Positions 26,806 through 61,703 of a stretch of 64,000 bases of DNA are shown in pieces (the stretch's first letter is position 1; every line of letters starts with the position of its first letter). The notes below the pieces were generated by a model, which saw nothing but the letters and a program-made list of their open reading frames with translations, was not told where the DNA came from and ran no database searches. The DNA lies in NCBI RefSeq assembly GCF_016623615.1, contig NZ_JAEHFX010000009.1:62001-126000 (forward strand), given 5' to 3'. The position numbers were made by a program, and so were the translations under genes. Origin of the DNA: Adhaeribacter terrigena. Its GTDB lineage: Bacteria; Bacteroidota; Bacteroidia; Cytophagales; Hymenobacteraceae.

Positions 26806-26834
26806 AAAACGCTAGGGTTTCGGGGCGAAAAAGT
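26806..26834 (+). repeat. Interspersed AACGSTA motif
   Basis: AAAACGCTAGGGTTTC then GGGGCGAAAAAGT, placed between two terminators. Confidence 0.72.
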
Positions 26835-26837
26835 CTG

Positions 26838-26885
26838 AAAAACTAAAAGCCACGGCTCATTGCTGAACCGTGGCTTTTAGTTTTT
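26838..26885. terminator. Bidirectional terminator
   Basis: AAAAACTAAAAGCCACGG and its exact complement around a 12-base loop, with A and T runs at the ends. Serves the minus-strand beta-barrel gene. Confidence 0.88.
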
Positions 26886-28770: not shown

Positions 28771-28867
28771 TGGCGGGCAGTAGTTTTTAAACTACGAAGG
28801 ATGCTGTTTTTTCGTCATCCCGACGATAGGAGGGATTTCATACGGTTAGTAGTGAAGTTTGCTATTG

Positions 28868-28896
28868 ACTTTTGAAACTCAAAATGATACCGTTTT
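28868..28896 (-). repeat. Interspersed AACGSTA motif inside element C1
   Basis: ACTTTTGAAACTC then AAAATGATACCGTTTT. Confidence 0.65.
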
Positions 28897-28930
28897 TCCC
28901 GCAGTTGTTGGTGTTTTCATCAACAACTAT

Positions 28931-28959: not shown

Positions 28960-29348
28960 CATCTTTATCTCATTGATCAATTGCCTCAGTAGTTCTTCTC
29001 TTACTTTAGTGTTCTTTTTGTCCCCGAAATGCTTCGGGATGTTCCACTTGATACAAACAGAACCAACGAAAATCAAGCGGCACGTCCCGAAGCATTTCGG
29101 GAGCAAGCGCAAACTTCCCGCAAGCCTGCGGGACAGGCGCTGACCGCTCAAACAGTGCGCTTGACAAAAGCGCACCCTGATAACTTTCTGCATTTCATAG
29201 CAAAATGAACAGTGCCTAAATAGTAGACTTCAGTGGCTGTGTAAACGGTCAAATCTTTCGCTGGTAGCGAAGATTTGACTTGTAGTTCTTCGTCTTTTCG
29301 TTGATCGTACTCCGCTTCGCGTTCGAAGCATTTTGTTTTGTATAAAAG

Positions 29349-35349: not shown

Positions 35350-35633
35350 CCTGCCGCCTGAGCATGATTTGGATGATTATTGCCTGAATCAGGATTTACT
35401 GAAACGAAGTTCTGCTTATCTAATTTGAGAATTTACAGAATTGTTTAGACGGTGATTGGTGATTCTTTTGATCCCTGTGGTTTTTGTCTGAACACGATTT
35501 TAAGGATTAAAAGATGGACAGGATTATTTTCACATTTCCATTTCACGCACCTCGCCAGCGCAGCGTACCCTGAAAATTACGCTATCTGAGAAACTAACTA
35601 AAAAGAAGTTCGCTACGAAGGAGCATGACACCA

Positions 35634-35739
35634 GTTTCTGTGAGAGCGGCCTCCAAGACTTCCGGTGCCGAGGCACGAGGCAGCCCGCAAGGGCAGGAAG
35701 GGTTGCAGCCGCGAACGCAGAAACGAAGCCGCCCGGCTT
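35634..35739 (+). ncRNA. Structured RNA-like core, copy A
   Basis: Paper folding gives an outer stem GTTTCTGTG (35634-35642) with CGCAGAAAC (35716-35724), an internal loop AGA/GAA, and GCGGC with GCCGC. Inside are CTTCC/GGAAG, a GTGC/GCAC hairpin, and GCCC-GCAA-GGGC with a GNRA tetraloop. AAGCCG-CC-CGGCTT follows. The strand is assigned by the GNRA loop and is uncertain. It could also be a DNA-level mobile element. Confidence 0.4.
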
Positions 35740-35799
35740 GAGGGAGAAAGCTTCATTGAAAGTTAAGAGCTAATAGTTAGGAACGAAAAGCAAGCTATA

Positions 35800-35829
35800 A
35801 AAACGGTATCGTTTTGAGCTTACAAACTG
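35800..35829 (+). repeat. Interspersed AACGSTA motif inside element A
   Basis: AAAACGGTATCGTTTTG then AGCTTACAAACTG. Confidence 0.6.
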
Positions 35830-35876
35830 CTTGCCGACGACGAGATCCTTCACTAACGTTCAGGATGACAAGGTGT

Positions 35877-35906
35877 AAAACGCTATACTTTCAAACTCAA
35901 AAACTC
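35877..35906 (+). repeat. Interspersed AACGSTA motif inside element A
   Basis: AAAACGCTATACTTTC then AAACTCAAAAACTC. Confidence 0.65.
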
Positions 35907-36034
35907 AATTGCAACCTTTCTAATTAGCTTAAATAGATCCCTCTTTATCGTCTGGATGACGGAAACAGTCGGGATAATTACAAAGCGCTATCCTTAGTAA
36001 CAGAAAAACTACTTTAAACCACAACAGATTCCCG

Positions 36035-48247: not shown

Positions 48248-48448
48248 GATCAGGATTTTCAGGATAATTGTCTGAACGGTAATTCTATTGATTCATGTGA
48301 AGTTTGTCTGAACACGATTTTAAGGATTAAAAGATGAACAGGATTTTAACACCTGATTTCACTATATCGCCAGCGCAGCGTAACCTGAAATCAAGGACTG
48401 AAGAAAAGTAAACTAAAAAGAAGCGAGCTACGAAGGGAACTGACACCA

Positions 48449-48548
48449 GTTTCTGTGCGAGCGGCCTCCAAGACTTCCGGTGCCACAGGCAGCCCGCAAG
48501 GGCAGGAAGGGTTGCAGCCGCGAACGCAGAAACGAAGCCGCCCGGCTT
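48449..48548 (+). ncRNA. Structured RNA-like core, copy B
   Basis: The same pairing as copy A: GTTTCTGTG (48449-48457) with CGCAGAAAC (48525-48533), then GCGGC (48461-48465) with GCCGC (48517-48521), and CTTCC/GGAAG. A shortened hairpin TGCC-ACA-GGCA replaces the longer one of copy A. GCCC-GCAA-GGGC (48492-48503) and AAGCCG-CC-CGGCTT (48535-48548) are kept. The 6 bp deletion keeps the hairpin, as expected of a selected structure. Confidence 0.4.
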
Positions 48549-48607
48549 GAGGGAGAAAGCTTCATTGAAAGTATAATACTTGTAGCTAAGAACAGAAGCA
48601 AACTATG

Positions 48608-48637: not shown

Positions 48638-48694
48638 AATTCTGCAACCTTTCTACCAACTTGATGCGATCTCTCCTGACGTCGAAATGACGAA

Positions 48695-55694: not shown

Positions 55695-55744
55695 ACGGCC
55701 AAAGGTAAAAGTAAAAGCCTATGATCTGGCGGTAATTATTTAGG

Positions 55745-55775
55745 AGTTTTTCTGCCCGAAACCCTAGCGTTTTTC
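55745..55775 (-). repeat. Interspersed AACGSTA motif
   Basis: AGTTTTTCTGCCCG then AAACCCTAGCGTTTTTC. Confidence 0.7.
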
Positions 55776-60242: not shown

Positions 60243-60321
60243 GTGTTAATAGCATATTGTTTTTTCGGTCATCCCGACGATAGGAGGAATCTCTTTCAGT
60301 TGGTAGTTTTGTTTGATATTG

Positions 60322-60350
60322 ACTTTTTCAGCCTTAATGTATACTGTTTT
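60322..60350 (-). repeat. Interspersed AACGSTA motif inside element C2
   Basis: ACTTTTTCAGCCTTAATG then TATACTGTTTT. Confidence 0.6.
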
Positions 60351-60383
60351 CCCTGCCGTTGTTGGTGTGTTTACCAACAACTT

Positions 60384-60413: not shown

Positions 60414-60790
60414 ATATTAAGCTTTCTACCTTTGATCAATTGGCTGAACTAGCTTCTAACTCACTCCTCTGTTCTTTTTGTCTTGATACAAAAAGAACCA
60501 AAAAAATCAAGTCAACAAAAACTCGCTGACCGCTCAAACAGTTTGTTGACAAAAAGCCACCGTGATACTTTTCCTTATTCGTAGCGAACCGCACAGTGCC
60601 TATATAGTAAGCTTCAGAGGCTAGGCAAACGGTCAAATCTTTCGCTAGTAGCGAAGATTTGACTTATTTTCATCGCTTTCGTTGATCGTGCTCCGCTACG
60701 CGTTCGAAGGGGAATTATATAATTTTATTGAATTCTGACAATTCTCTAATTCTATAAATTCAGACAAATCACAAAAATCAAAGAAATCAT

Positions 60791-60917: not shown

Positions 60918-61703
60918 ATGCGAATGAAAAAAGCTACTGTTTTAATTACCGGCGCTTCCGGCGGGATCGGGGAAGAATTTGCCCGTATCTTTGCCCGGAA
61001 TGGTTTTGATCTGGTGTTGGTAGCACGGCAGGGAGATAAATTACAGGAACTGGCCCGGAAGTTTTCGGACCAATTTAAAACGGAAACCTTTGTTTTGCCC
61101 GTCGATCTGGTGCAGCGCGCTTCGCCGGAACATATTTTTGAAACCCTGAAAACTAAAAATATTCAGGTGGAGGTATTGGTAAATAATGCCGGTTTTGGCG
61201 AATACGGTCATTTTGAAGAAATTAGCTTGCAGCGGCAACTCGATATGATGCAACTGAATATGACGGCCGTGGTGCATTTAAGCAAACTTTTTCTGGAGCA
61301 GCTGTCACCAACTGCGGAGGGCAAAATACTGAATGTAGCCTCTACGGCAGCTTTTCAGCCGGGGCCTTTAATGGCCGTTTATTTTGCCACCAAAGCGTTT
61401 GTACTGTCCTTTTCCGAAGCCATTGCCAACGAACTGAAGGCGCGCCGCGTAACTGTAACGGCATTATGCCCAGGACCTACTGCAACTGATTTCGAAAAGC
61501 AGGCCAATTTAGGCGGCTCCGATCTTTTTGCGGGTAAAATTGCTACGCCGCAGGAAGTGGCAGAGGCTGGTTACGAAGGCCTGATGGCCGGAAAAACAGT
61601 AGTAATTCCCGGAATAAAAAATAAAGTATTAGCGCTGAGCAGCCGCTTTGCGCCCCGAGATCTGGTAACCAGAATAGTGCGCTTTATGCAGGAAAAAAGA
61701 TGA
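60918..61703 (+). CDS. Short-chain dehydrogenase/reductase
   Basis: A 261-residue Rossmann-fold oxidoreductase. TGASGGIG (11-18) binds NAD(P), NNAG is at 89-92, and the catalytic Ser142 is followed by Tyr155 and Lys159 in YFATK. An Arg soon after the first motif (VARQGD) favours NADP. Substrate unknown. The first ATG gives MRMKKA; an alternative is the second Met two codons on. It overlaps the next gene by 4 bp (ATGA), so the pair forms an operon. Confidence 0.92.
   Translation: MRMKKATVLITGASGGIGEEFARIFARNGFDLVLVARQGDKLQELARKFSDQFKTETFVLPVDLVQRASPEHIFETLKTKNIQVEVLVNNAGFGEYGHFEEISLQRQLDMMQLNMTAVVHLSKLFLEQLSPTAEGKILNVASTAAFQPGPLMAVYFATKAFVLSFSEAIANELKARRVTVTALCPGPTATDFEKQANLGGSDLFAGKIATPQEVAEAGYEGLMAGKTVVIPGIKNKVLALSSRFAPRDLVTRIVRFMQEKR

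Follow-up and report, generated by a model that had tools for sequence, protein, structure and literature searches.

High-copy repeats of bacterial genomes are in most cases short hairpins that are recognised at the DNA level. The REP, BIME and REPIN sequences of REP/RAYT systems are palindromes of 20-40 bp (REP size: PMC3733652), dispersed in intergenic DNA in tens of copies that include inverted pairs, and the repeat flanks the RAYT gene. Atypical secondary structures have also been reported beside Bacteroidetes genes of subclass 2.6 of the RAYT superfamily (PMC6006769); the sections of that paper we examined give no sequence for them. MITEs, ERIC, BOX and RUP elements are non-autonomous, intergenic, multicopy and foldable, while the HEARO/OMEGA RNAs of IscB elements are multicopy structured RNAs tied to mobile elements. 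Lastly, covarying noncoding RNA candidates such as 6S-flavo, Bacteroidales-1, Flavo-1 and GUCCY-hairpin have been described in the phylum (PMC2864571).

The element analyzed here shares something with each of these. Like the REP family it is a dispersed intergenic hairpin repeat with tens of copies, some in inverted pairs, but it has a core of about 137 nt that is branched and pseudoknotted, and the RAYT-like genes examined are not flanked by it. It has the general properties of MITEs and their kin but, as far as g3 ends read by eye show, no terminal inverted repeats or target duplications, and its selected features are compensatory change on the given strand and a pseudoknot. It resembles the HEARO/OMEGA RNAs in being multicopy and apparently structured as RNA, without a HEARO match or a recurrent nearby gene. 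The candidates of PMC2864571 likewise covary; those having Rfam models in the library we scanned gave no match to the element. We found no paper on such a repeat in the literature searched, which mostly excluded subscription papers, and none of the searched terms occurred in PMC2267715.

The window (the whole stretch of 64,000 nucleotides of Adhaeribacter terrigena DNA under analysis) holds two copies of the element, A and B, both matched by R1, a covariance model that we derived from 24 sequences (Table 1). A weak match at 61296-61332 (E 0.24) was not accepted as a copy. The first-pass annotation had described near-identical cores at 35595-35765 and 48411-48580, and both copies are present at these places. 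The pairings it named (GTTTCTGTG/CGCAGAAAC, GCGGC/GCCGC, CTTCC/GGAAG and GCCC-GCAA-GGGC) all exist, and the deletion it saw in copy B does spare the hairpin, being a short indel in the loop of TGCC...GGCA with the stem intact. Its claim that the flanks differ held only in part: a stretch 5′ of the cores is 86% alike (35453-35525 vs. 48273-48345), and blocks flanking the core on both sides are conserved in 30 aligned genome copies. The core is richer in G+C than the window (63% vs. 46%). Copy A is flanked by genes for a DUF6799 protein and an MFS transporter, both directed away from it; the neighbours of copy B are the gene for triosephosphate isomerase and one for a DUF6150 protein, which run in the same direction as the copy.

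Table 1. Coordinates in the window of the two copies and of the parts of their fold
Feature	Position	Strand	Basis
Copy A core	35619..35755	+	covariance model R1 match, 148.5 bits
Conserved upstream block, genus-level unit: TCGCCAGCGCAGCGT...GAAAATTACG	35552..35588	+	30-copy alignment
Outer stem P1, 5′ strand GTTTCTGTG	35634..35642	+	helix 1 of A4
Outer stem P1, 3′ strand CGCAGAAAC	35716..35724	+	helix 1 of A4
Stem P1b, 5′ strand GCGGC	35646..35650	+	helix 2 of A4
Stem P1b, 3′ strand GCCGC	35708..35712	+	helix 2 of A4
Inner stem, 5′ strand CTTCC	35659..35663	+	sequence and fold, outside the A4 model
Inner stem, 3′ strand GGAAG	35696..35700	+	sequence and fold, outside the A4 model
Hairpin P2a, TGCC-GA-G(GCA)C-GA-GGCA	35666..35682	+	helix 4 of A4; apical motif by eye
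Hairpin P2b, GCCC-GCAA-GGGC	35683..35694	+	counterparts in other copies, by eye
Hairpin P3, AAGCC-GCCC-GGCTT	35726..35739	+	stem variants among copies
Pseudoknot, P3 loop CCC 35732-35734 with GGG 35742-35744	35732..35744	+	loop/partner covariation
Copy B core, short-loop variant	48434..48564	+	covariance model R1 match, 131.7 bits
Copy B, same folded domain	48449..48553	+	sequence and model match
Copy B P1	48449-48457/48525-48533	+	sequence and model match
Copy B P3	48535-48548	+	sequence and model match
Copy B pseudoknot	48541-48543/48551-48553	+	sequence and model match

The fold consists of a long stem with internal loops at similar positions, two capping hairpins, and then a small H-type pseudoknot and an A-rich tail. 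We followed its parts in A4, an alignment of 88 sequences fitted to a second covariance model, R2, built from 103 sequences. Cells of the outer stem P1 are paired in 98.3% of cases, with double-sided changes in 8 of its 9 pairs; helix 2 models 4 of the 5 pairs of P1b, all 4 with double-sided changes, and P2a is 99.1% paired, with such changes in 3 of 4 pairs. In the rows of genus g1 the register of helix 5 in A4 does not fit P2b, and counterparts of this hairpin were read by eye (GGCC/GGCC, TTCC/GGAA, TTGT/ACAA, TTGC/GCAA and TTTC/GAAA). Its loop, which the first-pass annotation had called a GNRA tetraloop, is more correctly GNNA (GCAA, GCCA, GGCA, GATA, GGTA or GGAA). The tip of either apical hairpin is often a GNA triloop closed by one pair and flanked by GA on each side, as in GA-G(GCA)C-GA and GA-C(GAA)G-GA, with the closing pair swapping between G-C and C-G (by eye). 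The last hairpin, P3, had been given as AAGCCG/CGGCTT; we correct this to 5 bp, AAGCC/GGCTT with a loop of GCCC or ACCC, because a common A variant would break the sixth pair. Its stem also occurs as AGGCC/GGCCT, AGTCC/GGACT, ATGCC/GGCAT and AGCCC/GGGCT. We also observed two copies, L034 and L056, whose predicted stems run unbroken for 30 and 24 bp, without the internal loops present in most copies; these stems look as though the sequence of one arm had been copied from the other.

The fold is kept by selection while its letters change. Copy A (35595-35790) folds with a z-score of -3.3, none of 200 shuffles being as good, and eight copies folded singly gave values from -8.5 to -1.4. It should be noted that two copies from genus g3, L050 and L053, are unexceptional (z of -1.4 and -1.6), with many shuffles equally stable. 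Since A4 is biased towards its model by construction, we place first the result from A2, a structure-blind MAFFT alignment of 24 sequences: here RNAalifold proposed 24 pairs, 10 of them with at least one double-sided change. In A4, 97.6% of 2062 cells are standard pairs and 20 of 24 pairs show double-sided changes; leaving out helices 3 and 5 (one and two pairs, respectively), which join wrong partners in g1 rows, gives 17 of 21. The number of cells changed on both sides was 402 vs. 107.6 ± 7.9 in shuffles, 0 of 500 shuffles reached the real value on any of five measures, and pairing fell to 33-45% in controls where the partners were slid by 1 to 3 columns. One could suppose that the hairpins are chance palindromes within a local duplication and that their fold is unselected. 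Its only support is that the window contains two copies, and the covariation over 88 sequences, together with the double-sided pairs of the structure-blind alignment, all but rules it out. The first-pass suggestion of a structured RNA, or of a mobile element with RNA-like folding, is supported by this strong covariation among many copies. It was to be refuted by the lack of both covariation and a transcript, or by identity with a known transposon end; covariation is strong, there is no credible Rfam match, and no transposase gene lies beside the copies examined.

The non-Watson-Crick pairs point to the strand that folds. Leaving out one row that is a 56-nt fragment, the 2057 base-pair cells in 87 rows comprise 1895 Watson-Crick, 113 G.T, 4 A.C and 45 other combinations (1703, 73, 3 and 30, respectively, among the 1809 cells that remain without helices 3 and 5). 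In a cruciform, or if the other strand folded, A.C should be no rarer than G.T; the large excess of G.T over A.C therefore indicates that the given strand folds. These counts are of cells, not events, and many G.T were inherited together, 43 of them in two columns. The selected molecule is thus the given strand and not a two-strand cruciform; this result does not separate RNA from single-stranded DNA.

Sequence covariation shows that the P3 loop forms an H-type pseudoknot with the bases just 3′ of the hairpin. The pairs are CCC/GGG in the window, GCTC/GAGC in G195, CGC/GCG in genus g6, GCC/GGC in g3 and TGC/GCA in G174; by eye, we also read CAC/GTG in family f19 and both GCCC/GGGC and TCTCC/GGAGA in family f5, where our script picked different partners or gave no result. 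It could parse 104 of 124 sequences, the 20 failures coming from a wrong choice of stem, and a few of the parsed sequences are also wrong, which counts against covariation. Among the 93 positions in 31 distinct loop/partner types, 77 were Watson-Crick vs. 54.1 ± 3.0 after permutation, and 0 of 10,000 permutations were as high as observed. This test leaves shared descent in.

The window core is one member of a large dispersed family in Adhaeribacter and related bacteria. Of 80 candidates from a DNA search of the A. terrigena genome, 40 were scored and all 40 matched; scoring 150 of 1055 first-look candidates gave 77 R1 matches at E <= 0.001. Across the Hymenobacteraceae, with no more than 15 candidates scored in each genome, R1 matched in 69 of 204. 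In genera g1, g2, g3 and g6 a large share of the genomes hold several copies or many; g5 gave single borderline matches in only four genomes, and g4 no match under the same limit. R2 matched in 32 of 390 Cytophagales genomes (at most 8 scored per genome), two further families included; two genomes of f5 had 4 and 7 matches and two of f19 had 3 and 1. At the level of the class, 3 of 395 genomes gave R2 matches: A. terrigena itself, G880 of family f56, whose two copies both keep the order of parts by eye, and G851, whose match (22.9 bits) does not show that order. BLAST with a g3 locus returned 43 to 71 matches in each of four genomes (G013, G003, G008 and G040), some of these being hits to the flanking genes. 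An 18-base pattern run against genome contigs hit 14 places. Eight of these lie in Adhaeribacter soli; the remaining 6, by eye, have nothing beyond the 18 bases in common with the element and were set aside. Rfam 15 gave no match to the whole window at the gathering score and none to region 35400-36000 (601 bases) up to E 10, and for 15 more loci, searched with limits of E <= 1 or 2, there were five miRNA/sRNA hits in total, each far below its cut-off.

Copies fall into at least four stem subfamilies in A. terrigena and A. soli taken together, at least three of them in A. terrigena alone; the outer and apical parts are common to all, while the long stem differs and yet remains paired. An insert of about 22 nt between stem and last hairpin occurs in six A. 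terrigena copies of three stem types, and modules therefore recombine. Within the main subfamily, mean core identity was 95.2% among A. terrigena copies, 94.7% among A. soli copies and 90.0% between the two (11 and 7 copies, respectively, hand-picked, gaps excluded). Two orthologous pairs, identified through shared neighbour genes, were 113/124 (91.1%) and 113/126 (89.7%) identical, no closer than the mean between-species pair. The 5′ strand of the inner stem reads ACTTCC in 29 of 30 A. terrigena copies; A. soli copies of the main type have CTTA in 8 of 8, extended to CTTAC in most, and the partner GTAAG in 7 of 8, and a minority A. terrigena subtype likewise has CTTAC/GTAAG. Copies are homogenised within each genome, that is, they undergo concerted evolution. 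As a separate observation, the 3′ stem strand of four loci in G003 and G008 (L033, L039, L040 and L044) is replaced by a CTCCTCCCCTGTTTTTAGGGGAGG repeat, after which the last hairpin region still follows in some.

Among 98 loci of four groups, the element lies between tandem genes in their direction at 40 and against it at 21, between convergent genes at 30 and between divergent genes at 7; one further locus has a gene on one side only. No copy overlaps a gene (ORFs of <200 aa overlapping the element were ignored). Copies therefore lie outside genes and rarely between two promoters. The placement bears on the main rival to a mobile element, namely a multicopy RNA that serves the host, transcribed from each copy or by readthrough from the upstream gene, and acting as a 3′-region or trans-acting regulator that binds a host protein. 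Its multiplicity would reflect many regulated sites and its concerted evolution gene conversion. In its favour, the upstream gene is co-directional with the element at 70 of 98 loci, tandem pairs show the excess along gene direction given above, the pseudoknot and A-rich tail are RNA-like, and cores are about 90% alike at two orthologous sites where the intergenic flanks have diverged. Against it, 28 of 98 copies have no co-directional upstream gene, neighbour genes vary between copies, presence varies at one site among congeners, and the borderline matches in genus g5 imply that the element is not essential in the family. We lean away from this explanation, without being able to dismiss it.

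Other repeats were seen in the same DNA. A second repeat, GATCCCTCC...CGTCGGGATGAC, lies 3′ of the core in many copies (35844-35869 and 48668-48691 in the window), with a similar one in g2; by eye, changes in one arm seem to be matched in the other (ATCCC/GGGAT, ATTTC/GAAAT, ATCTC/GAGAT, ATCCT/AGGAT), and it is possible that this is a covarying hairpin in its own right. The window also has long repeats about 31.4 kb apart (28807-28928 with 60261-60382, 77% alike; 29194-29281 with 60578-60665, 85% alike and containing palindromic CAAATCTTTCGCT...AGCGAAGATTTG), and inverted arms with AAAACGCTAGGGTTTCG at 26806-26852 and 55727-55773 that resemble the AAAACGCTAT words after the element.

Presence of the element varies at one locus in genus g2, searched in 47 genomes and read in six. 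G017 and G203 carry it, while in G181, G195, G185 and G210 the two genes almost touch, with a terminator-like hairpin alone between them. This shows gain or loss at one site; loss in four lineages is not excluded. In the filled site the element sits inside composite repeats, about 770 nt in G017, and the difference between filled and empty sites, the only one resolved, is this composite and not the element alone. The composite is bounded by the words ATTATAG and ACTATAC, where an empty congener has ACTATAG, and ACTATAG-like words also punctuate other composites. A further observation in g2 (L092, 500-2637, and L105-L114) is of intergenic composites of different repeats punctuated by palindromic AACTATAGTT, with several BLAST matches stopping at these words. 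In g1 and g2 the core is embedded in composites with other repeats, and in g3 BLAST matches end at recurrent places, defining a unit of about 190-215 nt; 21 left and 16 right g3 ends showed no terminal inverted repeats or target duplication by eye, our script having found no right end in 5 of 21 rows. Two sites are common to A. terrigena and A. soli, and some copies are therefore old. G013 and G040 both carry an element or its decayed remains at the L053 locus, and no clean empty site was obtained for L056 or L116 (g3). For spread by phages or plasmids, two exact patterns had no match in IMG/VR, nor did the window core in plasmids or a g2 core in plasmids and phages; these collections may contain few Hymenobacteraceae records.

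A search for a protein that travels with the element was equally negative: when 349 neighbour ORFs of >=100 aa from 158 loci were clustered, the largest cluster covered 3 loci (ORFs overlapping the element were omitted and the flank was 0.7-1.5 kb at most loci). None of the ORFs beside copies in low-copy genomes was recurrent or mobile-looking, some being judged by their first residues only. These data bear on the idea of a decayed guide-RNA element of IscB/TnpB type (HEARO, OMEGA) that has lost its protein gene. The high copy number and pseudoknotted, RNA-like shape are in its favour, but there was no HEARO match to the 601-base query up to E = 10 or to the 15 additional loci (E <= 1 or 2), and no neighbour ORF recurs over the 158 loci. 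We consider this explanation very improbable.

A different possibility is a REP/REPIN-like hairpin of single-stranded DNA, handled at the replication fork by an HUH (Y1) or similar enzyme. Three points favour it. All six distinct close pairs of copies are inverted and divergent, with 5′ ends facing, some copies being partial; Y1_Tnp matches occur in 156 of 204 genomes of the family, with seven (PF01797) in A. soli; and GNA and GNNA loops with tandem G.A would suit DNA hairpins as well. Against it, the A. terrigena genome, with its 77 copies, has no Y1_Tnp (PF01797) match at E <= 0.001 (8 candidates scored), and the size and pseudoknot of the element differ from those of REPs. Moreover, the 16 RAYT-like loci (about 3.7 to 5.3 kb) contained no element by R2 at E <= 0.01, the best score being 12.6 bits (E 0.021, L200); for 15 of these loci we inspected the flanks by eye, and many had other short hairpins there. 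In several g3 copies a GTAGC, which would fit the GT[AG]G foot at the base of REP hairpins, lies upstream of the stem and not at its foot (by eye). A RAYT as mobiliser is not supported, given the lack of a Y1_Tnp match among the 8 candidates scored in the A. terrigena genome and of the element at E <= 0.01 in any of the 16 loci, and we regard a REP/REPIN-like element as unlikely. Identity with the structures of PMC6006769 cannot be fully excluded, and is doubtful since the RAYT-like loci seen here speak against it. The RAYT-like genes themselves (L193-L208, in g1, g2 and g3), mostly of 181-197 aa, have NH[VL]H or SHVH, then WQ or WLD, then YIHNNP or YIHQNP, and often adjoin hairpins such as GCACGAGCTGCAAGCTCGCGCCAGC or CCGCAAGTTTAGCG...CAACTTGTGGC, which resemble REPs of their own.

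Our best explanation is a non-autonomous mobile element whose folded strand is probably RNA and which is recognised in trans. We hold this reading to be as likely to be wrong as right, and the RNA nature, transcription, need of the fold for spreading and the trans factor are all inferred. In this proposal, selection would keep a folded single strand, most likely RNA; a putative trans factor would recognise its shape and conserved nucleotides rather than the letters of the stem, and would place the element in intergenic DNA by copying or insertion, most often downstream of genes; and repeated spreading or gene conversion would keep copies within a genome alike. The reading is based on 77 copies in one genome, dozens in its relatives and one site of presence or absence; on the covarying fold and pseudoknot, the choice of strand and the stem subfamilies that share modules; and on concerted evolution and intergenic placement, with convergent outnumbering divergent gene pairs. 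For mobility itself the basis is the high copy number and that single site, and the agent is not identified. Several results weigh against it: no mobilising protein was found (largest neighbour cluster, 3 of 158 loci), the g3 ends show no terminal inverted repeats or target duplication by eye, the phage, plasmid and viral-contig collections searched gave no match, some copies are old, the folds of L050 and L053 are unexceptional, and a host function could also explain conservation.

A bolder form of the mobile reading, which is no more than possible, sees the element as the bacterial equivalent of a SINE. Its copies would be short RNAs whose identity lies in their shape and pseudoknot and not in their sequence; they would multiply by way of RNA, using an enzyme that acts in trans, and their exchange of whole stem modules would give rise to homogenised, genome-specific subfamilies. 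Here, a larger, branched and pseudoknotted fold spans several families, with stem letters replaced in step in each genome. If the element spreads through RNA, bacteria would harbour a SINE-like parasite and an unidentified trans enzyme; if it serves the host, several genera would possess an abundant RNA absent from the Rfam families. Either way, the covariance model provides a concrete handle, and the sister genera that are nearly without the element offer a natural comparison.
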